A stretch of 64,000 nucleotides of DNA from Sideroxydans sp. (GTDB lineage Bacteria > Pseudomonadota > Gammaproteobacteria > Burkholderiales > Gallionellaceae), in assembly GCA_024636935.1 (NCBI GenBank), contig JAGXGC010000022.1:62001-126000 (forward strand), in the 5' to 3' direction. How positions within the stretch are numbered: the first letter of the stretch is position 1; every line of letters begins with the position of its first letter. Positions 25,610 to 49,404 of this stretch are shown piece after piece. A program made the translations under genes and the position numbers. The notes beneath the pieces were generated by a model that was not told the origin of the DNA, made no database searches, and worked only from the letters and a program-made list of their open reading frames with translations.

Positions 25610-27001
25610 TTAGTGTGTTTGACCAGACGCAGGTGTCGCACGACTCTCTCCTGTCCGCTGTGCATAGATGGAGACAAAAGGTTCAGGCTCGCTATGCCCG
25701 TGCTCCACCAGTAAGTTCGCCAGATCGAATAGCGACTGGCGCGTTCCGCGATAACCCACCCACAGGCGCTGATAACCGCCCAGCAGATCGTATTGTGGGA
25801 AACCTGCGCGCAGCAGCGGCACGCCGAGACGGCGTGATGTCTCCACCGCATGCGAATTGCTGATGACCAGTTGTGCGCCGTTGCGCTTGGCTGTGTTCTC
25901 GAGGTCTTCCAGATCGCCGATAGCCACTTGCTCTGCCACCACGCTCGCCAGAATGTGAGCGCGCGCCGGTGCGACAGCGGCCACCACTTCGCAACCCATC
26001 TCCGTCACCAGACGCGATAAGCCATAGAGCAGATCAGCATCCGCCGCGATCGCGACGCGCGCGAAGCCCAACATGAAGTGCACATCCACCATCGCGTCCT
26101 GCAACTGCGCGCGCTGGCGTTCGATCTTCTCCGGCACCGGCTTGCCGCTGATGGCGGCCAGTGCAGAAACAAAACTATCCACCGCTTCCAAACCCATCAA
26201 ACAATCGAAGCGATAGTCCGGCACGCCGGTCTGCGCTTTGAGCACGTCCGCCGCATCGAACAAAGAATTACCCAGCACCAAAGTTGCGATAGATTCGCCC
26301 ATAGTGGAGATGTCGGAAACCGGTGTGCCACCCACAGTGAGTGGAGAGCTTTCCATCTCGGTCAAATGGCCGTCGAGTGAATCGCCGATGTCCGGCAACA
26401 CCAAGGGACGCAGTCCAAATGCTTCAATCAATTCTTTGAGGTGTTCCACATCACCCGGTGTTAGGAAAGAACCGGCCAACACATTGACCTGTTTCTTGCG
26501 CTTACCCACGTTGCCCGTCTTTTCCGGCAGCATCACTTCCAATGTCGCCTTCACCGCCAATGCGTAACCGCTTTCCAAACAACCGGTGAAGTCCGGTGTA
26601 TTCACCGGCACCACGGGGATGTGCGCATACTCGGGATGCTTGGCATAGAAAGTCTTCACCAGACGTTTGATGTCCGTGCCCTGCGTTTCAGAAAGGCCGG
26701 TGGTCGGCAGACCGATCAACGATGGCTTGCTCTTCTCGCACACCGCTCGCAGACCTTCGACCACGTTCTCGTCCGCATTCATCACGGTGGAGACTTGATC
26801 CATCGCAGTGGTCTGCAAAGGGATCGGCTCGCGAAAATGGCGCACGAAGAACACCTTGCCAAACGCGGTGCAGCCCTGCGAACCGTGCAGCATCGGAATG
26901 GCTTTATTGATGCCCAGGAAAGCAAGCGAGGCGCCGAGTGGCTGGCTGGCCTTGAGCGGATTCACCGCGAGTGCTTTATTGCGTTTCAGTATCTCGGCCA
27001 T
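25610..27001 (-). CDS. nifN: Nitrogenase iron-molybdenum cofactor biosynthesis protein NifN
   Basis: NifN pairs with NifE as the scaffold on which FeMo-cofactor is finished. The 463-residue protein starts [20 protein letters not shown], followed by [30 protein letters not shown], which is the NifK-like P-cluster region, and [14 protein letters not shown]. The length is normal. It is separated from nifE by a repeat element of 133 bases and is followed by nifX. Confidence 0.97.
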
Positions 27002-27172: not shown

Positions 27173-28579
27173 TCACGCCCCCAACTCCACACCCGGCACA
27201 CTCGACTTCGCCCACGGTGCTGGTTTGCGTACGCCCGGCCATACCGGGCTCTGGATGGTCAGCGCGAGCTGGCGGGCAAGTTCGATCATGCCGCTGTAGC
27301 CCTCGTAACCGAATTCACGCTCCTGATTGATGTCAAGGAATGGGATGCGCGCTTTCAACGCGGTGTACATATTGCGGCCACCCGCGATGAGGATGTCGGC
27401 TTGATATTCCTTCACCACGCCGAGCAATGCCTTGGGGCTACCGTCGGTGATCATCTTGGTCTTGTCACCCATGATCTCGCGGATGCGCGCCTTGTCTTCC
27501 TCGGTGGATTTGTTGGTGCCGGTGGCGACCACGTCCATACCCAAGTCTTGCAGCGCGGAAACGATGGACCACGACTTCACGCCGCCGGTATAGAGCAGCA
27601 CGCGCTTACCGCGCAGCTTCTCGCGCCACGGGTCCAGCTCAGCGTTGATCTTGGCTTCTTCGCGCGCGATCATCGCTTCGGTGCGTTCGGTCAGCGATGG
27701 GTCGTTCAGCAGTTTCGCAAAATCGCGGAAGGCATTCGAGGTATCTGTCACGCCGTAGAAGCTGCCTTCGAAGAACGGCACCTTGTGATCGGTTTGCAGT
27801 TTGCGTGCGATGTTGAGCAATGCTTTCGCGCACACCACCATGCTGGCTTCAGCGCGGTGCATGGTCTGCACTTCATGGAAGCGCGCATCGCCGGACAAAG
27901 TGCACAAGATGCGCAGGCCGAGTTCGTCGAACAACGGTGCCACGTTCCAGAACTCACCCGCGATGTTGTATTCGCCGATCAGGTTCACATCGTGCACGGT
28001 GATGCCGGGGCGTTGCAGCGCGTCAGGCACCGGCAGCGGTTCGCCCGTGCCCACCACATATTTGAACATCGCCTCACCCGCGATACGGTTGCCCAGATTC
28101 TTCGTGCCGTAGAAACCGGCACAGTCCACCGGCACCACCGGCACGCCACATTTCTCAGCGGCTGCTTTACACACCGCGCTGATGTCGTCGCCGGTCAGCG
28201 CAGGTACGCAGGTGTTGTAGACGAAGACGGCTTTCGGGGCGTAACTATCGACAGCCTGCTTGATGGAATGGAACAAGCGCTTCTCGCCGCGCCCCATGAT
28301 CACATCTTGTTCGGTCAGATCGGTAGTCATACCGATGCGATACAAAGTCGGCCCGGAAGAGCGCGTACCGCGGTTATCCCAAGAACTCCCCGCACAAGCG
28401 ATAGGCCCGTGCACGATATGTGCAACGTCAGCGATAGGCAGCAAAGCGATCTGCGCCCCATCGAACGAGCAGCCGCCCGCAGTCGCCCCAGGCTTGGGTC
28501 GCGCACAACCGGATTTCTCCTTTTTGTTATGCGTACAGGCCGGTTCGTTCAGCAGTTCGGCGATGTCCTTGGCTTGCAT
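27173..28579 (-). CDS. nifE: Nitrogenase iron-molybdenum cofactor biosynthesis protein NifE
   Basis: NifE forms the NifEN heterotetramer, a nitrogenase-like scaffold for FeMo-cofactor. The 468-residue protein has [35 protein letters not shown] with the cluster-binding cysteines near residue 65, [14 protein letters not shown], and a late [19 protein letters not shown] short cysteine-containing lead ([16 protein letters not shown]) is typical of NifE. A sigma54 promoter and a NifA box lie upstream, so this is the head of the operon. Confidence 0.97.
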
Positions 28580-28867: not shown

Positions 28868-29122
28868 ATGAAGCTAATTGGCAGAAACCGACTTGGGGCA
28901 CTTTATGGCCTTGACGATGATACAGACACTTGGATGCACAACTGGGTGTCTGAGATAACTCATGCGAACTGGAAAATTCCCAGAGATGTAATTCGACAAT
29001 TCCCGAAAGCTAGAAATATTGCGCACGACATATTTGCATTCCCAGTCGGCAGTCAACCTCAATGTATAGAGGTTGCCATGGTCTTTCCCCAGGCAGTCGC
29101 GCTTGTAGTAGGTTTGAAATGA
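28868..29122 (+). CDS. HigB-like toxin, apparently shortened at the C-terminus
   Basis: The 84-residue product resembles HigB ribosome-dependent mRNA interferases of the RelE superfamily: MKLIGRNRL, HANWKIPRDVIRQFPKARNI and the strand FAFPVG. The usual ending of this family (about 97 residues, closing with an F-V-G-T-H-x-x-Y-D-type segment) is missing, as the frame stops after ALVVGLK. The toxin may therefore be weakened or inactive, or a divergent member. It overlaps the antitoxin gene by ATGA. The base composition is A+T-rich, unlike the flanking nif genes. Confidence 0.72.
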   Translation: MKLIGRNRLGALYGLDDDTDTWMHNWVSEITHANWKIPRDVIRQFPKARNIAHDIFAFPVGSQPQCIEVAMVFPQAVALVVGLK

Positions 29123-30345
29123 AAATAAAAATGAACACCAAAGTAATCCGATCAGAAGAGCAGCATCAAGGTTATTTGCTCGAGATACAGCAATTAATTG
29201 AACAGGCCCCACAGACAGGCACTGAGGCGGCCGAATATTTGGAACTCCTGTCTGTTCTGGTTGAATCATACGAAAACCAGAAATATCCAATAGAAGCTCC
29301 AGACCCTATCAGCGCCATTCACTTTCGTATGCAAGAGCAAGGCTTGAGGCAGGCTGATCTTATTCCGTATTTTGGGACGCGCAGTCGTGTTTCCGAAGTC
29401 CTCAGCAGGAAACGCCCCCTAACGGTAAATATGATTCGCGCACTTTCTAGTGGTCTTGGCATTTCAACAGAGACACTAATAGGTATTGAACCATCAACTA
29501 CCAATCAATCCGAAAACGATGAAGTTGATTGGAGTCGTTTTCCAATCAAGGAAATGGTTGCGCGCGGTTGGCTTCAAAAACTAACCAACAAAGCAAGTGT
29601 CGCAACCGAGGAACTTGTGAGAAGTTTCATATCAAGCGTTGGAATGGAAATTGGGAATGCGGCATATCGTCGAACTGTTGGTGGCGACGCGTATTCACCC
29701 GCAACCCGTTATGCATTACATGCATGGCTTGCGCGAATAATACAAAGAGCTCGAGATCGAAAACAGAAATTAGGACTATTTGATAGTAGCCAACTATCGC
29801 AGGACTTTCTGAGAACATTGGCTCAGCTTAGCTGGTCCGAAAAAGGGCCGAGCCTTGCAATTGAATTCCTCGAAAAACATGGAATAGCAGTGATTATTGA
29901 ACCCCCATTGAAAGGCACACTCCTCGATGGAGCAGCGCTGCAAGATGACGATGGCACTCCGATAATTGGCCTAACCCTTCGATTCGATCGCCTGGACAAT
30001 TTCTGGTTTACCCTTATGCATGAGGTCGCTCACCTCTGGAAGCACGTTAGTGCAAAAGAAACATTCCTAGATAACTTAGATGCTTCGTCTGAAGACCGCC
30101 GAGAACTCGAGGCAAATCGAATTGCCAAAGAGGCTCTAATTCCAAGAATCGCTTGGAAGCGTAGTGAGGCATTTTTAAATCCAAGTGTTCAGGCTATAGA
30201 CCTTCTTTCTAGAGAGCTAAAAATACATCCTGCAATCATCGCAGGTCGCATAAGAAAAGAGAAAGAGAACTACACAATATTCACAGAACTAGTTGGGCAA
30301 GGTGAAGTACGGAAGCACTTTAATTTTTCTGAGGTGGAGGTTTAA
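29119..30345 (+). CDS. HigA-type antitoxin fused to an ImmA/IrrE metallopeptidase domain
   Basis: The N-terminal 120 residues match HigA: an acidic helical lead (EEQHQGYLLEIQQLIEQAP), then a helix-turn-helix in GLRQADLIPYFGTRSRVSEVLSRKR. The C-terminal half (about residues 215-370) is an ImmA/IrrE zinc peptidase with MHEVAHLWKH as the HExxH motif near residue 300 and a likely third ligand in ELEANRIAKEAL. ImmA-type proteases cut repressors, so the protein could both repress the operon and respond to a signal. The start overlaps the toxin stop (ATGA). Base composition is foreign. Confidence 0.85.
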   Translation: MKIKMNTKVIRSEEQHQGYLLEIQQLIEQAPQTGTEAAEYLELLSVLVESYENQKYPIEAPDPISAIHFRMQEQGLRQADLIPYFGTRSRVSEVLSRKRPLTVNMIRALSSGLGISTETLIGIEPSTTNQSENDEVDWSRFPIKEMVARGWLQKLTNKASVATEELVRSFISSVGMEIGNAAYRRTVGGDAYSPATRYALHAWLARIIQRARDRKQKLGLFDSSQLSQDFLRTLAQLSWSEKGPSLAIEFLEKHGIAVIIEPPLKGTLLDGAALQDDDGTPIIGLTLRFDRLDNFWFTLMHEVAHLWKHVSAKETFLDNLDASSEDRRELEANRIAKEALIPRIAWKRSEAFLNPSVQAIDLLSRELKIHPAIIAGRIRKEKENYTIFTELVGQGEVRKHFNFSEVEV

Positions 30346-30347
30346 TC

Positions 30348-31454
30348 ATGAAAACGATTTATGTTCCTGTGATGGCTGCAAAACGTGGTGAATTTACAGC
30401 CCTGTCCAATTTATCTGACTCCATATCAAAGAGAACGGTGCCTCTTTTTGAATTGCCTACGAGATTAAAATCTCTTGAAAAATCGATTAGCCGTACAGCT
30501 TCCGATGCAGGTAAGGCATGGCAAGGGCGCCCTGCCTTTCTCGATATATCAAAGTGGAGTCCAAACGCCAGAACTGAAAGTGGCATTCACGTTTTGGAAT
30601 ATGCGCTCAGTCAATTTCGCTCGAACAGTGTTGAAGCACATCCTGTTATTAGATATGACCGCTGGGATGACCCCGCCTACAGCCAGGCGCTGAAAAATAT
30701 ACGCAGCTACCTCCCTGTAACACCATGCATCCGACTTGATCGCGAGACTATAAAAGATGACATGCCAGACACTTCGTATTTCTATGGTCGCATTCAGGAA
30801 ATTCTGGAGACCCTAGATCTTGATACTAGCAATTGTTACGCAATGATTGACTTTGGCGATGTGTCCACGACCTCGGTGCCGCAAATAATTGCTGATACAG
30901 AAATGGCTATTGAAGTACTGCGTGACATAGGATTTAGTTCATTGATTGTAGTCGGCGGGTCAATGCCCGCAGCTGTCAATGAGGCTGTTGACACTCCTGA
31001 TGCAGAAGGATGCATTCCTCGCATCGAAATGATGGCATGGAAAGCAGTGTTTACTGACAAAGGGGATAAAAGAATCATTTTTGGAGACTACCTAATCAGA
31101 AGCCCAATTGCAGCAGAAGGTGTCATTGCGCCTCATGCAAATGCAAAAATTCGCTATACCATCGACAACCAATATTTCATTGTCCGTGGCCATTCTAAGA
31201 AAATCGATTCTTTGGAACTTCAACACAAATCGCTTGCAAAGAAATTAGTTGCTTCCCCCTACTTCATGGGTACATCGTTCAGTTGGGGGGATTCCTCAAT
31301 CTTTGATTGCAGTGTTGGAGCTAAGGCATTTCGCGACCCTACGTCAATGATTGCTGTAGACAGTAATCACCACATTTGTTCTGTTGTGGCTGAAATATTT
31401 GAGTTTCAGAAACAAACCATATCGTTCGGCACAAATACGCAAACTGAGGCATAA
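30348..31454 (+). CDS. Beta-family protein (phage T4 beta / sce7725-like)
   Basis: This 368-residue protein starts YVPVMAAKRGEFTALSNLSD and continues RTVPLFELPTRLKSLEKSIS, the typical opening of the beta protein family (PF14350-type), whose molecular role is not settled. No membrane span or signal peptide is seen. Members are often found in phages and beside toxin or ImmA-type genes, as here. It starts two bases after the antitoxin-protease gene with GGAGGT as ribosome-binding site, so all three form one operon. Its A+T-rich composition matches the other two. Confidence 0.7.
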   Translation: MKTIYVPVMAAKRGEFTALSNLSDSISKRTVPLFELPTRLKSLEKSISRTASDAGKAWQGRPAFLDISKWSPNARTESGIHVLEYALSQFRSNSVEAHPVIRYDRWDDPAYSQALKNIRSYLPVTPCIRLDRETIKDDMPDTSYFYGRIQEILETLDLDTSNCYAMIDFGDVSTTSVPQIIADTEMAIEVLRDIGFSSLIVVGGSMPAAVNEAVDTPDAEGCIPRIEMMAWKAVFTDKGDKRIIFGDYLIRSPIAAEGVIAPHANAKIRYTIDNQYFIVRGHSKKIDSLELQHKSLAKKLVASPYFMGTSFSWGDSSIFDCSVGAKAFRDPTSMIAVDSNHHICSVVAEIFEFQKQTISFGTNTQTEA

Positions 31455-33460: not shown

Positions 33461-34426
33461 TCAGACGGAATACGGCGCGGCTGCCCAACCTTGCACCAAT
33501 GCCGCTTCGGTATCCGGCAGGTAGCTGAAGCCGGATTCCAGATCGCGCACGACGGCGTAGGCTACGTCTGGCGGGGTGATGGTGTTGGAGACTAGATGGA
33601 AATACCAGGCAGAGGGGTAACCCGCCGCGCGGTCGAAGGCTTGCAACTGGTGCGACATGTCGACGCCGGATAGCTCGTCATTCCACTGGAACGATTTGAG
33701 TTCGCGCGCATGGCGCGATACCAGCGAGGCGGTCACCACCTGATTGCGATAACGATCCAGATGTTCGCGCAGGCCAACGACCCAATGTTCGCAGAATGGG
33801 CCGCGTGTGGCGGCGCTGCTGTGTGACCATTCTTTGAGCAGACGCGGCAGGCCGCTGTCACGTCCGGTCGCCAAGCCCACGCGTGCGACGGTTTGCTTCA
33901 TGTCGAGCAGGCGGCGGAATTTGTAACGCGGCGCAGCCACTGCCTGCCCGTCGAGTAGCAGCGGTGAGATGGGGTCGATGAGTTCCTGCATGTCTTCCGG
34001 CAATTGATCAGGATCGATCAATTCACGATCCAGCACTTCTTGCAGTTCTTCCACTTCCAGTTGCATGAAGTCGGCAGGCGCCGGGCCATAGGGGCAGACG
34101 AAGTAATGCGTGCGGCCGGAATGACGGGTGACTTGCAGGCCTTTGTCTAGATTGCGCTCGACCAGTTCGGCCATGTCGCCGTCGCAGGCTTCCAGCTCGG
34201 TGCGTGCCCAGCGTTCCAGTTCATCCGAAAGACGGTCGCCGTTCGGGGCGATGACGCCACCGGGGCGATACCAACCGCCACGGTTCAGCGCATATTCAAA
34301 GGTGCAGCCGGGATGGATGAGGTTGGCGATATCCATCAATTTGTTGTGATGCGGGCGCGGCGACAACGCCTCGATCTTGCGCGCAAGCTCTAGCAGCGCT
34401 GTTTCATCGGGCGTAACAATCGTCAT
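33461..34426 (-). CDS. Conserved protein of unknown function coupled to the LRV gene
   Basis: No family is recognised in this 321-residue soluble protein. It has acidic middle segments (LEVEELQEVLDRELIDPDQL), a CPYGPAP motif near residue 112 and a C-terminal RDLESGFSYLPDTEAALVQG. Its ATG overlaps the LRV stop as ATGA, so it is co-translated with the LRV iron-sulfur protein and falls under the same sigma54/NifA control. A role in nitrogen fixation is therefore probable, but its activity cannot be read from the sequence. Confidence 0.8.
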   Translation of the reverse strand: MTIVTPDETALLELARKIEALSPRPHHNKLMDIANLIHPGCTFEYALNRGGWYRPGGVIAPNGDRLSDELERWARTELEACDGDMAELVERNLDKGLQVTRHSGRTHYFVCPYGPAPADFMQLEVEELQEVLDRELIDPDQLPEDMQELIDPISPLLLDGQAVAAPRYKFRRLLDMKQTVARVGLATGRDSGLPRLLKEWSHSSAATRGPFCEHWVVGLREHLDRYRNQVVTASLVSRHARELKSFQWNDELSGVDMSHQLQAFDRAAGYPSAWYFHLVSNTITPPDVAYAVVRDLESGFSYLPDTEAALVQGWAAAPYSV

Positions 34427-35184
34427 TTCTCGTCTCCCATCAAGTATTCGTTCAATCGCTGGCGCACCACGGTGCACACATCAGGCTCGGCATCGTCCAC
34501 TAGTTCAGCGATAGACTCAAGTGGCGCGTGCTCTGCCGCGCGCAGACGCACCACCCAATCTTCGTCGTGCAGCATCTTCACAGCATCGTCCGGCAACACG
34601 CGTTCGGCCACGATGCGCCGTACTTCCACATCTTCATCCTGCGCCATGCGCCCAAGGGCGAACGGTGGCAAGCGGCGTGCGATGACCTTGCGTACTTCGC
34701 GCTCTTCATCGTGCGCCATGCGCGGCAACTGCCCGTGCGGCAGGCGTTTAGCCACCTGCATGCGCACCAGATAGTCCACATCGTTCTGCAATACGCCCAA
34801 CTCCTCTGGTGCCAGCCTATCTGCGGCCGTCATGCGCACTTCGCGGTCGGGGTCGTGCAAATAGTCGCCCAGCTCGTCGATAGGCAGACGCATCACCATC
34901 ACGCGCCTCACGACTTCATCCTCATCTCGCTCCAAGGGGCGCAAGGCTGCCAGTGGCGCATGTTGCGCGGCGATAGCACGCCGTTCCCAGAAGGCATCGT
35001 GCAGATAGCTTTCGGCGAATTCCTTGTTACGGCGCAGGAAGCGGTCGATCTGGCGCCCGCTGTGTGCGGTCACGCAGATGTCGCCGGGCACGCAGCGGCC
35101 TTCAGCCAAGAGCGCCCGATGCGGACAGGTTGTGCAATCGGCGAGAGCGACCGGTGGTGATGACTCCGTGTGACTTTCCGGCAT
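34423..35184 (-). CDS. 4Fe-4S leucine-rich-repeat-variant (LRV) protein, nif-associated
   Basis: The 253-residue protein resembles the Azotobacter vinelandii LRV protein: an N-terminal iron-sulfur segment CTTCPHRALLAEGRCVPGDIC (about residues 18-38), then about eight helical repeats of 24 residues. Repeat units are seen in DEDEVVRRVMVMRLPIDELG, DPDREVRMTAADRLAPEELG and DEEREVRKVIARRLPPFALG. The ATG at 35,184 has AGGA seven bases upstream. The gene has a sigma54 promoter about 40 bases before the ATG and shares a NifA box with the divergent Cache/CheW gene. Its role is unknown. Confidence 0.9.
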   Translation of the reverse strand: MPESHTESSPPVALADCTTCPHRALLAEGRCVPGDICVTAHSGRQIDRFLRRNKEFAESYLHDAFWERRAIAAQHAPLAALRPLERDEDEVVRRVMVMRLPIDELGDYLHDPDREVRMTAADRLAPEELGVLQNDVDYLVRMQVAKRLPHGQLPRMAHDEEREVRKVIARRLPPFALGRMAQDEDVEVRRIVAERVLPDDAVKMLHDEDWVVRLRAAEHAPLESIAELVDDAEPDVCTVVRQRLNEYLMGDEK

Positions 35185-35222
35185 GTGGGTTCCTGCATTC
35201 AAAATTATCATCGTCATGACAT

Positions 35223-35240
35223 CAGCAACCACCGTGCCAT
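35223..35240 (-). promoter_or_regulatory. Sigma54 promoter of the LRV operon
   Basis: On the minus strand TGGCACGGTGGTTGCT matches the RpoN consensus TGGCACG-N4-TTGC exactly, with GG and GC ten bases apart. Confidence 0.92.
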
Positions 35241-35333
35241 CCGGAAATATATATGCATTCCTTTGAATCACTGACGATACGACTAGTGATTCACCCAGTG
35301 CAAGCGCAAATCAAACAATCAAAACGGGCCCAA

Positions 35334-35349
35334 TGTCACAAACCATACA
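35334..35349. promoter_or_regulatory. NifA upstream activator site shared by the LRV and Cache/CheW genes
   Basis: TGT-CACAAACCAT-ACA is a perfect TGT-N10-ACA box. It lies about 104 bases from the -24 element of the LRV promoter and about 98 bases from that of the Cache/CheW gene, so one box is placed almost midway between two divergent sigma54 promoters. Confidence 0.85.
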
Positions 35350-35436: not shown

Positions 35437-35454
35437 TTGGCACGTTTATTGCTT
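35437..35454 (+). promoter_or_regulatory. Sigma54 promoter of the Cache/CheW gene
   Basis: TTGGCACGTTTATTGCTT matches the RpoN consensus perfectly, with GG at 35,439-35,440 and GC at 35,451-35,452. It stands about 60 bases before the ATG. Confidence 0.93.
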
Positions 35455-35514: not shown

Positions 35515-38130
35515 ATGGCGCTATATAAAGGAGCAGAAGTCGACGATGAATTGCTTTGTCTGATCTCCCGCATGGGCAAAGTGGAAGAGTACCGCGAGAG
35601 CCTGCAAAACCTGCAAACGGTTTGGGACAACCTGACGCTGCTCGGCTATCTTTCCGGCACTGGCGCGGATATGTCTGAGACACGCGGTGCATTCCAACAA
35701 CTGACGGGCAGCCTGCTCAATCAACTGGGGCGCGAGACACTAAAAAAGACCGTGCTGGCGATGGAGTCCAAAGCGCAAGTGGCGGTCGACATCATGATCC
35801 GCAATCTGTTCGAGCGCACTGCAGACATCGGTTTCCTGTGCATGGATGGCATGGTGCGGGACTTCCTTAAGTCCAGCGATGGTCAGACACACAGCTTCGG
35901 CGCGCGCGACAGCAGCGCAGAACGCAAACCCACCGGACTTCGCGACGAGTTGCTCCAACACTTCCACGAATACGTGCGCAAGTATTCGGTGTATTCCAAC
36001 ATCCTGTTGCTTGATCCCGCGGGGAACGTGCTGCTGCAACTCGACGAACACAATCCGGTTCAACGGAGTACCGATCCTTTGATCGCCGAATCGCTTTCGA
36101 CCGACGCCGCTTATGTGGAGTCCTTCCGCAAGAGCGACCTCGCACCCAAGCAGGATGCTGCCTTGCTCTACTCTTTCCGCGTGGAAGATGAGCAAGGCAA
36201 CGCACTGGGCGTGCTTTGCTTGAATTTCCGCTTCACCAACGAGACCGAACGCATCTTTGCCAATCTGTGCGGCCAGCACGACTGGAGCGTGATCACACTG
36301 CTCGACCAGAACGGACAGGTGATCGCCAGCAGCGACCATTGGCACATCCCGGTCGGTGCGAAACTGGAGATGGCGTTAGAGGAAAATTGGAAGGTCGTGC
36401 GCGCTGCCGGTCGCCAGTATCTCGCCGTCACCCGTCCAACAAATGGCTATCAGGGTTACACCGGCCCGGGTTGGTACGGCCAGGTGATGCTGCCGCTTGA
36501 ACATGCATTCGAACATGAGCACAACTTGAGCGACGTCCCCGACAGCGCGATGCAGGCAGTGATGGGCAACCCCAATCTGTTCGGCACTACGCTGCGCGAG
36601 ATCCCCGGACAGGCGGCCCGCATCCAGCGCGGCCTCAATCGCTCGGTATGGAATGGCAATGTCAGCCAGCGTAGCAAAGGGGAACGGGATGGCGGAGGCA
36701 TGAATCCCGCGTTCTCCAAAGTGCTGTTGTGGGAGATCAGCAATACCGGTCAAAGGACACAGGATGTGTTTGAAAGCTCGATCGCCAATCTGCATCAGAT
36801 GGTGGTCTCTTCCATCCTGCAGGACAGCCAGTTCCAGGCTGCGCTGGCCATCGACATCATGGATCGCAATCTGTACGAACGCGCCAATGATTGTCGCTGG
36901 TGGGCACTCACGCCTGCATTCCGCAACCTGCTGGCGGGCGACACCGCAGACGAAGCGGCATGTCATCAGATGACTGACATCCTCACCAACATCAACAGCC
37001 TGTACACGGTCTACGACAATCTTGTGCTGTTCGACAAAGCGGGCACTGTGCTCGCCGTCTCAAATCCGCAATACAAGGAACTCTGTGGCAAGCGTTTGAA
37101 CGAAGATTGGGGGCGGCAGACGCTGCAACTGAACAATAGTCAGGATTACACCGTATCGCCTTTTGTGCCGACGCCGCTCTACAAAGGAAAGCACACTTAC
37201 ATCTATGCGGCTGCGATCTTGCACCCTGACAACGATAGCGCCATAGGTGGCATCGGCATCGTGTTCGACTCCACTCCGCAGTTTTCCGCGATGTTGACCG
37301 ACGCCTTGCCACACGATGAGAAAGGTGACATCGCCCCCGGTTGCTTCGGCGTCTTTACCGACCGCAATCGACGCATCATCGCCTCTACCTCCGAGGCGCT
37401 ACAGGCAGGCATGACATTGGAGCTCGAAGAACAGTATTTCCAGCTACCTAATGGCAAGAGTCATTCCGGCATCGCCGTCTTCAACGGGAATTATTTCGCC
37501 GTAGGCACCAGCGTCTCGAACGGATACCGTGAATACAAGAGCGAAGATGATGTTTACAAGAATGATGTGGTCGCTTTGATATTCACCCCGCTGGGTGAAC
37601 AGCGCGAAGAAGAACGACGCTCGCGTAGCCCCGCTGCCCGCAACCGCTTGCAACGCACCACTACCCAGAACAATGGCGGCGATACACGCGAGATCGCCAC
37701 CTTCTATGTGGACAGTCATTGGCTGGGCATCGACTCGCGTCACGTTGTCGAGGCCGTCGATGTCAAAGGCATCACCAGCGTGCCAGGCAGTGGCGAGAAC
37801 ATGGTCGGCTATCTGATGTATCAGGAGAACATACTCCCGGTGGTGGGACTGTGGGGAATGCTTGGGAAATCCGATCGGCGACGCGGCAGCGAAGATCCGC
37901 AGATCATCGTGCTTGAGCTAGGCACCGGTTCGCGACTGGGCGTGATGGTCGATGAACTGGGCGAGATCCCTGAGATACCTCACGAGCGCATCGAGAAGAT
38001 CTCCACCATGCTCTCCGGTGCAAACCACCTGTCGGAAAGTTTGATCAAACCGGAAGGGAAACGCTCCGCGGAAGAGATGATCGTGTTGCTCTCGCCAGAA
38101 CGCTTGCGCGGGAAATTCCTATCGGCGTGA
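35515..38130 (+). CDS. Soluble tandem-Cache protein with C-terminal CheW domain
   Basis: The 871-residue protein has no signal peptide or membrane span. Two related sensor modules are visible, around residues 80-350 and 420-690: ESKAQVAVDIMIRNLFERTA then YSNILLLDPAGNVLLQLD in the first, and DSQFQAALAIDIMDRNLYER then YDNLVLFDKAGTVLAVSN in the second. The last 140 residues form a CheW-type domain (IATFYVDSHWLGIDSRHVVEAV; MVDELGEIPEIPHERIEKI). Such a protein could bring a ligand or redox signal to a CheA kinase without being a normal chemoreceptor. It is under a perfect sigma54 promoter and NifA box, so it belongs to the nif regulon. Confidence 0.82.
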   Translation: MALYKGAEVDDELLCLISRMGKVEEYRESLQNLQTVWDNLTLLGYLSGTGADMSETRGAFQQLTGSLLNQLGRETLKKTVLAMESKAQVAVDIMIRNLFERTADIGFLCMDGMVRDFLKSSDGQTHSFGARDSSAERKPTGLRDELLQHFHEYVRKYSVYSNILLLDPAGNVLLQLDEHNPVQRSTDPLIAESLSTDAAYVESFRKSDLAPKQDAALLYSFRVEDEQGNALGVLCLNFRFTNETERIFANLCGQHDWSVITLLDQNGQVIASSDHWHIPVGAKLEMALEENWKVVRAAGRQYLAVTRPTNGYQGYTGPGWYGQVMLPLEHAFEHEHNLSDVPDSAMQAVMGNPNLFGTTLREIPGQAARIQRGLNRSVWNGNVSQRSKGERDGGGMNPAFSKVLLWEISNTGQRTQDVFESSIANLHQMVVSSILQDSQFQAALAIDIMDRNLYERANDCRWWALTPAFRNLLAGDTADEAACHQMTDILTNINSLYTVYDNLVLFDKAGTVLAVSNPQYKELCGKRLNEDWGRQTLQLNNSQDYTVSPFVPTPLYKGKHTYIYAAAILHPDNDSAIGGIGIVFDSTPQFSAMLTDALPHDEKGDIAPGCFGVFTDRNRRIIASTSEALQAGMTLELEEQYFQLPNGKSHSGIAVFNGNYFAVGTSVSNGYREYKSEDDVYKNDVVALIFTPLGEQREEERRSRSPAARNRLQRTTTQNNGGDTREIATFYVDSHWLGIDSRHVVEAVDVKGITSVPGSGENMVGYLMYQENILPVVGLWGMLGKSDRRRGSEDPQIIVLELGTGSRLGVMVDELGEIPEIPHERIEKISTMLSGANHLSESLIKPEGKRSAEEMIVLLSPERLRGKFLSA

Positions 38131-39657: not shown

Positions 39658-40340
39658 CTCGCCCCCTTGGACCAGCTACCGCCCACGCGATATAAGCCGA
39701 CCAACACCAGGAAGGAGAACAGAACCATGCCGCCCGCCAGCCAATGCGCTTCGTTGTATTCCATCGCTTCAACGTGGGTGTAGATGGCGACCGACAACAC
39801 TTGCGTCTCGCCGGGGATGCTTCCGCCCAGCATCAACACCACGCCGAATTCGCCAACGGTATGCGCGAAGGCCAAGATGATCGCGGTGAGGAAACCGGGA
39901 CGCGCCAGTGGCACGGCGACACTGATGAAACGATCCCATGCATTGGCACGCAACGTTGCCGCCACTTCGAGTGGACGCTTGCCCATCGCCTCGAAGGCGT
40001 TCTGGATCGGCTGTACCGCGAACGGTAATGAGAACAATACAGAGCCAACCACCAAGCCAGCGAAGGTGAAGGGCAACGCGCCAATGCCAAGCCAGCGCGT
40101 GAACTCCCCCACGATTCCCTGCGGCCCCATCAGCAACAACAGATAGAAACCCAGCACAGTCGGCGGCACCACCAAAGGCAGCGCCACACAAGCTGCAATC
40201 AAACCTTTGTACCAACGATTCGTGTGTGCCAGCCACCAGGCTAGCGGCGTGGCGATGCACAAAAGAATCACTGTACTCACACTCGCTAGCTTGAGCGTGA
40301 GCGTGACGGCTTGCAGGTCTTCGGGGGTCAGCAAAGTCAT
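39654..40340 (-). CDS. modB: Molybdate ABC transporter, permease
   Basis: The 228-residue inner-membrane protein has five or six spans and the permease EAA loop EAMGKRPLEVAATLRANAWD near residue 130. The segments PLVVPPTVLGFYLLLLMG and FGVVLMLGGSIPGETQVLSVAIY are typical of ModB. It shares one base with the end of modA and overlaps modC by ATGA. It is part of modABC. Confidence 0.96.
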   Translation of the reverse strand: MTLLTPEDLQAVTLTLKLASVSTVILLCIATPLAWWLAHTNRWYKGLIAACVALPLVVPPTVLGFYLLLLMGPQGIVGEFTRWLGIGALPFTFAGLVVGSVLFSLPFAVQPIQNAFEAMGKRPLEVAATLRANAWDRFISVAVPLARPGFLTAIILAFAHTVGEFGVVLMLGGSIPGETQVLSVAIYTHVEAMEYNEAHWLAGGMVLFSFLVLVGLYRVGGSWSKGAR

Positions 40341-41104
40341 CAGTTACCCGCCAGTTCGTATCCGTAGCTCCGGATCACGGTTGCGGCCTGCGTGCCTTTG
40401 AGGAAGGCAAGGAAGGCTCTGGTCGCTTCAGGATCTTTTGCGCTAGACAGCATCACTGCACTTTGTTCGATCGGACTGTAGTAGTGAGACGGCACGATCC
40501 ACCATGAGCCGCCACTCACCTTGCCGCCCTTGGTGATCTGCGACAGCGCGATGAAGCCAAGCTCTGCATTGCCGGTCGCGGCGAACTGATAGGTCTGCGT
40601 GATGTTTTCGCCGCGCACAAGTTTTGGACTCACTGCTTTCCACAAGCCCAGTTCTTCCAGTGTCTCTTGTGCGGCGATGCCATACACCGCCAGTTTTGGA
40701 TCGCCGATAGCGAGTTTGTTATAGCTTCCTTTGCGCAACACTTCGCCCTTGCTATCCACCACACCCGGCTGCGCACTCCACAACACCAGTTTTCCCAGCG
40801 CATACACGAAGCGCGAACCGCTTGCGGTCAGCCCGTCATCGTCAAGTTTCTGCGGCGTTTTGCTGTCGGCCGAGATGAATGCATCGTAGGGCGCGCCCTG
40901 TTTGATCTGCGCATAGAACTTGCCGGTGGAGCCGAAACTAACCGAGACCTTGTGCCCGCTCGCCTGCTCGAACAGCGGCACGATCTCTTGCATCGGCGCG
41001 GTGAAGTTAGCCGCCACCGCCACGCGTACTTCGCCTGCCTGCGCCACTGGCGCCACCATCAACAGCGCGCCCCAAAAAAAGAATCTACTCAATCTCATTT
41101 CCAT
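40340..41104 (-). CDS. modA: Molybdate ABC transporter, periplasmic binding protein
   Basis: The 254-residue protein has a signal peptide (RFFFWGALLMVAPVAQA) and the ModA fold: VRVAVAANFTAPMQEIVPLFE, SFGSTGKFYAQIKQGAPYDAF, then LGFIALSQI. It captures molybdate or tungstate for ModBC. The start is either the ATG at 41,104 or another six bases in; both have GAGGG upstream. A related gene follows upstream at 41,166-41,930, so two copies stand in tandem. Confidence 0.93.
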   Translation of the reverse strand: MEMRLSRFFFWGALLMVAPVAQAGEVRVAVAANFTAPMQEIVPLFEQASGHKVSVSFGSTGKFYAQIKQGAPYDAFISADSKTPQKLDDDGLTASGSRFVYALGKLVLWSAQPGVVDSKGEVLRKGSYNKLAIGDPKLAVYGIAAQETLEELGLWKAVSPKLVRGENITQTYQFAATGNAELGFIALSQITKGGKVSGGSWWIVPSHYYSPIEQSAVMLSSAKDPEATRAFLAFLKGTQAATVIRSYGYELAGN

Positions 41105-41165
41105 AACCCTCAGTCAACACGTGTCTACCCGAAAGAACAGCAATATCGGTGCCAACACCAGAGTA

Positions 41166-45319: not shown

Positions 45320-46888
45320 TTACCGCACTAAGTCGTGGTTGAAGTCAGTGGTGCCCATGCCACGAGTTTCCTCGTCCAGGCGCTCCATCACAGAGTTCAC
45401 CAGAGTAGTCAGCATTTGCATCGCACCTTCGTAACCCAACGTTGTTGCACGATGCAGGTGGTGACGGTCGAAGATCGGGAAGCCGATACGGATCAGCGGA
45501 ACTTCGAACTCTTTACCCTTGTGCAATGTGTCGCGCTGGATGAACTTGCCGTAGGAGTTACCGATCATGAAGTCCGGCTTCTCTGTCAGCACCAGTGAGC
45601 GGAAGTGCCACAAGTCAGCACCTGCGAACAACTGGGTCTTCGCACCGTAAGGAGACTCTTCCAGCATTGCCTTCATAGCCTTCGTCCACTTCTTGCTGCC
45701 GTTGTTGCACAGCACGTGCAGTGGCTCGACGCCCAGTTCCATCAGGAACTTGGTCATACCGAAGCAGAAGTCAGGATCACCGTACAGGCTGATCTTCTTG
45801 CCGTGCAGCCAAGTGTGGCTGTCCATCATCATGTCGACCAGACGACCACGCTCTTTAGCCAACGAAGCAGGGATCTCTTTGCCGGTTGCTTCAGCGACCT
45901 TCATCAGGAAGTCGTCAGTGGACTCCAGACCCATCGGGATAGTGATCTTCGGCACTTCGTGCTTCCAAGTGTTCTCCACGAACTTGCGGGTCTTTTCCAG
46001 TTGCATTGGCTGCAGCAAGAAAGTGGTCTTCGCGTTAGGCGCGTCCTTCACTTCGTCTTGAGTCGTACCACCTGCATACATGCGGAACTCGCCATCAGCC
46101 GGTGTATCCAGCACTTCTGTAGGATCGGACATCAGCGTGTGCTCAACGCCCATCTCGTCCAGCATGCGGTGGATCACGCGGTAGTTGCCGAGGTAAGTCT
46201 CGAAACCGGGAACGATGTTGATCTTGCCGTTCTTGCCGACTTCTTTGCCTTCCATGGTGTTCAGCGTGAAGTAACGGATGATGCCTTCAAACATGTTGTC
46301 CCAACCTGTCACGTGCGAACCCACGAAAGACGGGGTGTGCGCGTATGGTGTCGGGAATTCCATCGGAACGCCGCCAGCCTTTTTGGTGTTGGTGATGAAG
46401 GCGTTCAAGTCGTCGCCGATCACCTCAGCCATACATGTTGTGGAAACAGCGATCATGTCCGGCTTGTACATGGTCATTGCGTTTTCCAGACCGTCGATCA
46501 TGTTCTTCTGACCGCCGAAAACGGCTGCATCTTCAGTCATGGAGTCGGATACGCAAGACACTGGCTCGCGGAAGTGACGGTTGAAGTAGGTACGGAAGTA
46601 CGCTACGCAACCTTGCGAACCGTGCACATACGGCATGGTCTTTTCGAAGCCCAACGCACACAGCACAGCGCCGAGTGGTTGGCAGGCCTTAGCCGGGTTA
46701 ACGGTCAGGGCTTCGCGTTGGAAGTTCAGTTCACGATATTCCATCGTGGTTGTCCAGTTGAAGATCTCCTGAACTTTTTCGTCAGCATGACCTTCTTCGA
46801 ACTTCGCTTTTTTGTTTCCCAATGATTCCTTGTACTCGTCCTGACGGAACAGAGGATAGCAAGGCTTGATGTCATCGACTTTTTGCAT
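45320..46888 (-). CDS. nifK: Nitrogenase molybdenum-iron protein beta chain
   Basis: NifK forms the MoFe protein with NifD and holds half of the P-cluster. The 522-residue protein has the long N-terminal extension of the NifK type, then NPAKACQPLGAVLCALGFEKTMPYVHGSQGCVAYFRTYFNRHFREP with P-cluster cysteines near residues 70 and 95, and STTCMAEVIGDDLNAF with the third cysteine. The ending RGMGTTDFNHDLVR is standard. It is preceded by a palindromic hairpin after nifD. Confidence 0.98.
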   Translation of the reverse strand: MQKVDDIKPCYPLFRQDEYKESLGNKKAKFEEGHADEKVQEIFNWTTTMEYRELNFQREALTVNPAKACQPLGAVLCALGFEKTMPYVHGSQGCVAYFRTYFNRHFREPVSCVSDSMTEDAAVFGGQKNMIDGLENAMTMYKPDMIAVSTTCMAEVIGDDLNAFITNTKKAGGVPMEFPTPYAHTPSFVGSHVTGWDNMFEGIIRYFTLNTMEGKEVGKNGKINIVPGFETYLGNYRVIHRMLDEMGVEHTLMSDPTEVLDTPADGEFRMYAGGTTQDEVKDAPNAKTTFLLQPMQLEKTRKFVENTWKHEVPKITIPMGLESTDDFLMKVAEATGKEIPASLAKERGRLVDMMMDSHTWLHGKKISLYGDPDFCFGMTKFLMELGVEPLHVLCNNGSKKWTKAMKAMLEESPYGAKTQLFAGADLWHFRSLVLTEKPDFMIGNSYGKFIQRDTLHKGKEFEVPLIRIGFPIFDRHHLHRATTLGYEGAMQMLTTLVNSVMERLDEETRGMGTTDFNHDLVR

Positions 46889-46970: not shown

Positions 46971-48419
46971 TTACGCGGCCTTTTTCCAAGGCGGAGTCAG
47001 TTGGCTCCAGCAAGGATTGTTCAAGGTCATATCCATGTCACGAGCGAAGATGGCGAAGCCGTCATAGCTGTGATACGGGCCGGAGTAGTCCCACGAGTGC
47101 ATCTGGCGGAAGGGGATGCCCATCTTTTGGAAGATGAACTTTTCCTTGATGCCGGAGCCGACCAGGTCGGGCTTGACGCGCTTCACGAACTCTTCGAACT
47201 CGAGGCCGGTGACATCGTCATACAACAGTGTGGCGTTACCCATTTCCTTGATGGTGCGGTCGTAGTCGTCGTTGTGACCGAACTCGTAACCTGTACCAAC
47301 CACTTCCATGCCCAAGTCTTCATAAGCACCGATCACGTGACGCGGACGCAGACCACCCACGTACAACATGACGCGCTTGCCTTCCAGACGCGGCTTGTAC
47401 TTGTCGATCACGGCTTGCATCATCGGCTTGTACTTGGCGATGACCTTCTCGGTGTTAGCCTTGATGGTGTCGTCGAAGAAAGCAGCGATCTCGCGCAGCG
47501 AATTCTCGATCTTGGTTGGGCCGAAGAAGTTGTATTCCATGTAAGGAATGCCGTACTTCTCTTCCATGTGGCGGCTGATGTAGTTCATCGAGCGATAGCA
47601 GTGCAGCAGGTTCAGCTTAGCCTTGGGAGTGTTCTCCATTTCAGCCAGCGTACCGTCACCAGACCACTGAGCGATTACGCGCAGACCCATTTCTTCCAGG
47701 ATCGTACGAGTTGCCCAAGCGTCGCCGCCGATGTTGTAGTCGCCGATGATTGTTACGTCGTAAGGTGTGGTTTCGAATGCGCTTGTATCGCGGTTGCCCA
47801 ACACCCAGTCACGGATCGCATCGTTAGCGATGTGGTGACCCAGCGATTGAGACACGCCACGGAAACCTTCGCAACGAACTGGCACGACAGGCTTGTTCAT
47901 TTCCTTTGATGACTTCTTGGCGACGGCTTCGATGTCGTCACCGATCAGACCGATCGGGCACTCGGATTGAATCGAAATACCTTTGTGCAGCGGGAACAGG
48001 CCTTCTATCTCGGTGATCAGCTTGGCAAGTTTCTTGTCGCCGCCGAACACGATGTCTTTCTCCTGGAAGTCAGAAGTGAAGTTCATAGTGCCGAAAGCAT
48101 TTACGCCGGTTGTACCAACGTAGTAGTTACGGCGACCGGCGCGGGAATACTGACCGCAGCCGACCGGGCCGTGTGAAATATGGATCATGTCCTTGATCGG
48201 GCCCCACACCACACCTTTAGAACCGGCGTATGCGCAACCACGAATAGTCATCACACCCGGCAAAGATTTGCGGTTGGAAGTGATGCACTTCTTGGACTGT
48301 TCAACAGATTGATCATTGACGGCGAGATGCTTCTCGCGGTCTTTACGTGCTTTCTCTGGATAGACCTCGAGCACCTCTTGAATGAGGGCCTGAGTCTCTT
48401 CTCTGGTCATTGCTGTCAT
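46971..48419 (-). CDS. nifD: Nitrogenase molybdenum-iron protein alpha chain
   Basis: NifD carries FeMo-cofactor and half of the P-cluster. The 482-residue protein has [20 protein letters not shown] with the first P-cluster cysteine, [18 protein letters not shown] with the second, [16 protein letters not shown] with the third, and the cofactor-binding cysteine and histidine in its later parts ([37 protein letters not shown]). The ATG at 48,419 is chosen because AAGGAG stands six bases before it. nifH is 85 bases upstream. Confidence 0.98.
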
Positions 48420-48504
48420 TTCATTCTCCTTATGGCCCACCAATCTGTGGAGCCCAGTGTTAGAGAGAGCGGCGAGCCGGATGACCCGCCGTTACAACAT
48501 CACA

Positions 48505-49404
<900 letters not shown>

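Follow-up and report, generated by a model that had tools for sequence, protein, structure and literature searches.

Does the gene for a protein that joins two Cache-like sensor modules to a CheW domain link nitrogen fixation to chemotaxis? The gene (35515..38130, + strand) lies in the 64,000-nucleotide stretch of Sideroxydans sp. DNA analysed here (the window), and is an exact open reading frame (ORF) with an ATG start, encoding a soluble protein of 871 residues. The initial annotation of the sequence had proposed a protein of the nif regulon that acts as an internal metabolic or redox sensor and adjusts CheA signalling while nitrogen is being fixed. We examined the domains of the protein, the control region of its gene, and the occurrence of the gene in other genomes.

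Domain content and predicted fold

The C-terminal part of the protein (residues about 722-870; 37678..38124, + strand) matched the Pfam CheW domain (PF01584) at residues 727-864 with 65 bits against a cut-off of 23.5 (E<=0.1). At the same E-value, no MCPsignal (PF00015), PAS, HAMP or receiver domain was found, which bears out the proposal of a CheW domain in place of a methyl-accepting domain. The absence of MCPsignal, PAS and receiver matches also ruled out a chemoreceptor, a PAS sensor and CheV as identities of the protein.

The remaining sequence matched dCache_1 (PF02743) in two stretches, the best at residues 142-273, with 37.2 bits, under the 45-bit cut-off, and Cache_WalK at residues 488-580 with 20.1 bits, under the cut-off of 27 (E<=0.1). 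In family alignment A1, both CheW and dCache_1 were matched in all 13 members at E<=0.01, with a best dCache_1 E-value of 4.9e-16. Furthermore, profile alignment found residues 42-331 and 404-696 to be homologous (probability 99.5, E 1.6e-22, 22% identity). The AlphaFold2 model (pLDDT 86.9, pTM 0.82) predicts two modules, each of a long helix and an alpha/beta part, followed by the CheW domain. Module 1 (residues about 20-350; 35572..36564, + strand), delimited by the sub-threshold dCache_1 match, the homology to module 2 and the predicted secondary structure, is modelled with N-terminal helices, a long helix (54-109) and an alpha/beta Cache-like part (139-332). Module 2 (residues 398-695; 36706..37599, + strand) is modelled as a long helix (398-464) and a double-Cache fold.

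In a VIA-align comparison of the model, module 2 aligned to double-Cache sensor domains, and the C-terminal part aligned to CheW. The fold neighbours of module 2, of the DctB, TlpQ, PctA and Tlp1 type, sense carboxylates, amino acids and amines. We place the protein in the dCache superfamily by the predicted double-Cache fold of module 2, and module 1 by its homology to module 2 alone. Taken together, profile homology, the dCache_1 matches throughout A1, the model and the fold alignment of module 2 agree with the two repeated Cache-like modules seen in the initial annotation. A sequence search of solved structures returned CheW and CheA relatives and nothing below E 0.01 for the module part, which was also without a match in the phage collection.

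The maximum Kyte-Doolittle mean over 19 residues was 1.11, and 0.43 for windows beginning in the first 60 residues. Judged by this hydropathy scan alone, the protein thus has no apparent membrane span or signal peptide, as had been claimed. Some 19-residue window exceeded 1.6 in 21/78 family rows (up to 2.13), always within positions 406-846 and in no case at the N-terminus.

Specific residues of the CheW domain were also compared. The Glu38-Arg62 pair of CheW aligns receptor and kinase sites, and CheW carrying R62A reportedly binds its partners near-normally but impairs chemotaxis (PMC3828127). Profile alignment to 2qdl showed that the 871-residue protein retains the glutamate (Glu746) and has a glutamine (Gln770) at the canonical Arg62 position. 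Among 76 CheW-bearing family rows, the Arg62 equivalent is arginine in 19 and another residue in 57, and the Glu38 equivalent is glutamate in 71; several of the closest relatives (e.g. L057 and L060-L064) retain the arginine. Since glutamine replaces arginine here, the action of the domain on CheA may be unusual. We class the C-terminal domain as CheW-fold, and not as an established coupling-competent CheW.

Control region and slot in the nif cluster

The gene is transcribed divergently from a nif-cluster gene (34423..35184, - strand) for an LRV protein with an FeS4 cluster motif, identified by Pfam LRV and LRV_FeS matches and by the sequence of relatives (LRV_FeS gene below). We placed its start at the ATG of MPESH... 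(35184, probably), because a sigma-54 box falls inside the longer ORF 34423-35271. A consensus sigma-54 -24/-12 box, TGGCACGTTTATTGCT (35438..35453, + strand), precedes the start codon of the tandem-Cache/CheW gene by 61 nt, counted from the end of the box. The divergent consensus box of the LRV_FeS gene is TGGCACGGTGGTTGCT (35224..35239, - strand). Between these two divergent promoters lies a NifA-type upstream activator sequence (UAS) of the form TGT-N10-ACA, TGTCACAAACCATACA (35334..35349, no strand assigned), at 88 and 94 nt from the two boxes. Genome G079 (locus L042) also has a UAS between divergent boxes, with gaps of 82 and 96 nt. In genome G021 (L054), by contrast, the corresponding gaps are unequal, 76 nt to the box of the gene but 251 nt to the divergent one.

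The window holds 8 sigma-54 boxes with up to one mismatch against a shuffle mean of 3.75, and 12 UAS against 13.83. Single matches of either kind are not rare by chance, and the improbable part is the arrangement and its recurrence. The gene has the site pattern of the NifA/RpoN regulon, a -24/-12 box with an upstream TGT-N10-ACA, and is predicted to be under this control; a NifA gene is present in the genome (690.5 bits joined). Elsewhere in the window, a full-match -24/-12 box (41139-41154, - strand) lies directly before ORF 40340-41104, which is molybdate-binding-protein-like by its position beside an ABC transporter, and this transporter may likewise be under RpoN.

Upstream regions of the family were then compared (78 loci with enough sequence and the gene itself, 79 regions in total). 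A sigma-54 box matching at least 9 of 12 positions was found within 200 nt upstream in 45/79 regions, against a random mean of 4.6 and a maximum of 12 (200 Markov randomisations), and in 51/539 other ORFs of the same loci. With at least 10 of 12 positions, the counts were 26/79 against a Markov mean of 0.9, and 18/539 for the other ORFs. A UAS between -260 and -80 was present in 10/79 regions (the 200 randomisations gave a mean of 2.0 and at most 8), five of them from Gallionellaceae, and absent from that interval in the other 69. This suggests that sigma-54 dependence is characteristic of the family and that the NifA site is limited to part of it. Sigma-54 boxes also occur in carriers without a nifK-type match, e.g. 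L102, L109 and L112.

On its - strand, the window carries nifN (25610..27001; TIGR01285, 601.8 bits), nifE (27173..28579; TIGR01283, 689.8 bits), nifK (45320..46888; TIGR01286, 883.7 bits), nifD (46971..48443; TIGR01282 match G000:C3:108986-110386, E 5.3e-263) and nifH (48505..49401; TIGR01287, 468.3 bits). A 338-residue ORF (orf338; 33461-34477, - strand) follows the LRV_FeS gene; it has no Pfam match and was found in 10/11 related nif regions. Between nifE and the rest of the cluster is a pair consisting of an HTH/M78-peptidase gene and a 'Beta protein' gene (29062-31454, + strand), which looks recently inserted because it was unmatched in 11 related nif regions.

We compared stretches starting near nifD or nifE in 10 relatives that do not have the tandem-Cache/CheW gene, eight of them of the same genus. 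In 8/10 (L146-L151, L153, L155), LRV_FeS adjoins an acetyltransferase gene, with the CheW gene missing between them. In these relatives, LRV_FeS is preceded by its own box matching 11 or 12 of 12 positions, and a UAS stands 73-76 nt upstream of this box. No LRV_FeS gene was matched in L152, and in L154 neither it nor the next ORF was. Identity to the proteins of G079 is 74% for the tandem-Cache/CheW protein, 72% for LRV_FeS, 67% for orf338 and 72% for the acetyltransferase. Thus, in two genera the gene fills a single slot, next to a NifA-type promoter that is conserved. Two relatives (L148, L155) have NifD 98-99% identical, yet are without the gene, indicating that it is dispensable for nitrogen fixation, and no full-length copy was found in any of the 33 other same-genus genomes. 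The slot pattern fits either descent with repeated loss or joint transfer.

Distribution and co-occurrence with nif and che genes

A long match was found in 15/158 Gallionellaceae genomes. Scanning of named genomes matched 106 stretches, of which 80 loci were kept, mostly from Beta- and Gammaproteobacteria: Gallionellaceae, Rhodocyclaceae, Zoogloea, Thauera, Hydrogenophilales, Thiobacillus, Paludibacterium, Methylobacter, Methylovulum, Acidithiobacillus and Steroidobacter, with single MAGs labelled Arcobacteraceae and Verrucomicrobia. These counts ruled out a one-off in a single genome. In one MAG (G117) the gene occurs twice, once on contig C300 and once on contig C56.

The 80 loci gave 78 genomes for a nifK search, as L061 shares a genome with L058 and L093 was left out. 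A nifK-type match was found in 65/78 carriers at E<=0.001, in 64/78 at E<1e-40 and in 53/78 over the cut-off, and was missing at E<=0.001 in 13/78. In the class sample, the counts were 38/369 at E<=0.001 and 32/369 over the cut-off; the difference between 53/78 and 32/369 has a Fisher p of 2e-27, with genomes taken as independent despite their kinship. Within Gallionellaceae, a nifD-type match at E<=0.001 was found in 11/15 carriers vs 43/143 others (p 0.0014, kinship ignored). Over the cut-off, nifD showed no enrichment (6/15 carriers vs 34/143 others, p 0.21), with some genomes fragmentary; the other five nifD-matching carriers have NifE-type or fragmentary matches only.

CheA was over the cut-off in 50/50 carriers tested, which were selected and not random, compared with 234/369 class genomes. 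The cultured carriers Parazoarcus communis SWub3 (L088), Propionivibrio limicola (L082) and Zoogloea dura (L115) have both nifK over the cut-off and CheA. Besides three CheA places, the Sideroxydans sp. genome itself has seven further places of CheW type and two matches to flagellin. One CheA sits in a 1683-residue frame, presumably a ChpA-like protein given its length. A capacity for chemotaxis is supported by the CheA, CheW and flagellin matches of this genome and by CheA in all carriers tested; the initial annotation had named a genome without che genes as refuting its proposal, and che genes are present.

At least one of 11 nif-associated proteins was found by tblastn within about 8 kb in 27/80 loci, and in 23/67 loci of 10 kb or more, both counted without control loci; with the same 11 proteins, no nif-associated gene was nearby in 53/80. 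Neighbours include nifHDK or nifEN (L057, L064, L072, L085, L086, L089, L090, L095, L120 and others), DraG-like and NifQ genes (L060-L063, L069, L073, L076) and LRV_FeS genes (L080, L084, L090, L095 and others). This proximity recurs in unrelated lineages, such as Methylobacter (L089, L090, L095) and Rhodocyclaceae (L074, L081). In L072, the gene, an MCP gene, nifE, a 159-residue ORF and nifN follow each other on one strand. There, the gene and the MCP gene overlap by one base (TGATG), and nifE begins about 100 nt after the MCP gene if its ATG is that at the start of the match; the longest nifE ORF would overlap the MCP gene. In L120 and L078, the gene is downstream of nifN, a NifX-associated gene and a nif-type ferredoxin gene on the same strand.

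MCP genes were nearby in 7/80 loci. PAS-bearing, Aer-like MCPs were found at L075 and L100 by scan and at L119 by cluster membership, and no PAS was detected in the MCPs of L072, L074 and L081 (E<=1e-5). The MCP of L117 has a PilJ domain, and five of the six scanned MCP neighbours are not PilJ-type. Another protein cluster lies near 13/80 loci, and its two scanned members are PAS-GGDEF-EAL proteins. A single conserved operon partner was ruled out, as neighbours vary and the commonest neighbour cluster reaches 13/80 loci.

The nif tie is strong, not obligatory. The nif link proposed in the initial annotation is upheld by the promoter layout, the nifK co-occurrence and the proximity to nif genes, and weakened by the 13 carriers without a nifK-type match and by the rarity of the UAS.

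Related proteins carry the modules without a CheW domain. L138-L140 (genomes G448, G236 and G406) have both modules in tandem at about 42% identity; they differ in that no CheW was matched and the frames stop after module 2. On plasmids of Methylobacterium, Niveispirillum, Paraburkholderia and Burkholderia, short MCP-tip proteins (L141, L143-L145; 342 and 346 residues as annotated, 377 and 368 for two unannotated) share one C-terminal module with the motif DRNLYER..D.RWWATD and hydropathy maxima of 1.16-1.75. In contrast to the 871-residue protein, this single module stands behind a short MCP part and there is no CheW; L141, the one of them scanned for domains, matched MCPsignal. They are possible relatives of MtpA, a cytosolic protein reported to act in formaldehyde taxis in Methylobacterium aquaticum 22A (PMC10613068). 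The CheW fusion is therefore one of several uses of a span-less Cache family.

Predicted function and competing explanations

The control signals and the distribution suggest that the protein informs the swimming machinery of the internal state of the cell during nitrogen fixation. We give a probability of about 0.5 to a cytosolic, NifA-switched sensor-adaptor, whose Cache modules would read a metabolite and whose CheW domain would shift CheA output. Here, NifA at the one shared UAS would activate sigma-54 transcription of the gene and of the divergent nif-cluster gene from the sites observed. The two Cache modules would read an intracellular small molecule, with an organic acid, amino acid or amine likelier than oxygen itself, and the CheW domain found in the protein would dock in the CheA/CheW/receptor array and shift CheA output. 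The nitrogen-fixing cell would then bias its movement, probably to sites with carbon, energy and low oxygen. The working mode would be that of a CheV-like adaptor with its own input domain, ligand sensing replacing phosphorylation. The redox or aerotaxis sensing suggested initially gained no direct support: the fold neighbours sense carboxylates, amino acids and amines, and PAS-bearing MCPs were seen near few loci. A sensor adjusting CheA signalling fits the nif link and the chemotaxis capacity, and loses support from the redox part and from the glutamine in the CheW domain. More tentatively, the family may represent chemosensory input without a chemoreceptor, in which a nif-regulated, receptor-free CheW protein senses a cytosolic metabolite through its two Cache modules and enters the array directly. 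Diazotrophs of several lineages would thereby have a connection between nitrogen-fixing metabolism and CheA output that can be switched.

A serious, if improbable, rival is dampening, because the CheW domain keeps the glutamate but not the arginine of the pair. The domain would enter the array or bind CheA and couple poorly, so that induction lowers chemotaxis during nitrogen fixation; in one version the receptors may instead be detached, and the Cache modules would merely tune the effect. The non-arginine residue in 57/76 rows beside a glutamate in 71, and the R62A phenotype (PMC3828127), agree with this, but several of the closest relatives keep the arginine, and two conserved sensor modules would be superfluous for pure dampening. 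This idea overlaps with the sensor-adaptor reading, and the odds of the two are not exclusive. The adaptor could also serve a non-flagellar CheA, with type IV pili (Pil-Chp), biofilm or cyclic-di-GMP as output. The 1683-residue frame among the three CheA places, the PAS-GGDEF-EAL cluster near 13/80 loci and the PilJ domain at L117 point this way; however, most scanned MCP neighbours are not PilJ-type and the genome has flagellins, and we regard such an output as unlikely.

The gene might instead be a general sigma-54 gene, for nitrogen limitation or flagella, which landed in the nif clusters of some lineages, with local NifA control and a function other than nitrogen fixation. Boxes in carriers without nifK, the UAS in only 10/79 regions with half of these from Gallionellaceae, the lack of nifD enrichment over the cut-off in that family and the clean absence from the same slot in relatives would all follow. 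This is hard to reconcile with the nifK enrichment and with nif proximity in lineages as unrelated as Methylobacter and Rhodocyclaceae, and its probability appears low. We consider it least probable that the CheW-like domain is a protein-binding part in nitrogenase regulation outside chemotaxis, with DraG, LRV_FeS or NifX-type partners. The DraG-like, NifQ, LRV_FeS and nifEN neighbours and the frequent loss of the Glu-Arg pair favour it, but CheA is present in every carrier tested, MCP genes are near 7/80 loci, and carriers without nifK-type genes exist.

The sensor-adaptor reading can be set beside known systems. CheV consists of CheW plus a receiver domain, AerC carries a PAS domain and an MCP domain, and the dCache sensors DctB, TlpQ, PctA and Tlp1 are extracytoplasmic (partly from structure entry titles). 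CheV is presented as a CheW-receiver adaptor in PMC4742279. Like CheV, the 871-residue protein lacks an MCP domain and would be an adaptor that brings its own input domain; unlike the phospho-receiver input of CheV, it has two Cache modules and no receiver match (E<=0.1). AerC of Azospirillum brasilense is described as soluble and acting in aerotaxis under nitrogen fixation (PMC6406031, PMC8561660). The two share solubility, the tie to nitrogen fixation and, as predicted for our protein, input to the chemotaxis system, whereas AerC is an FAD-binding chemoreceptor (same sources) and our protein has no PAS or MCP match. With DctB, TlpQ, PctA and Tlp1 it shares the double-Cache fold of module 2, and differs from these extracytoplasmic sensors by its lack of a span, its tandem modules and the CheW fusion. 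In the literature searched (titles, abstract openings and some passages, few subscription journals), no tandem-Cache/CheW protein and no nif-linked CheW appeared among the matches listed.

How diazotrophs position themselves at low oxygen with sufficient energy is a long-standing question, and few of the molecular parts are known. AerC of Azospirillum is one such part (PMC6406031, PMC8561660). If the sensor-adaptor reading is true, the tandem-Cache/CheW proteins would add another, built differently from AerC. Cache sensors could then act inside the cell and signal to CheA without an MCP.
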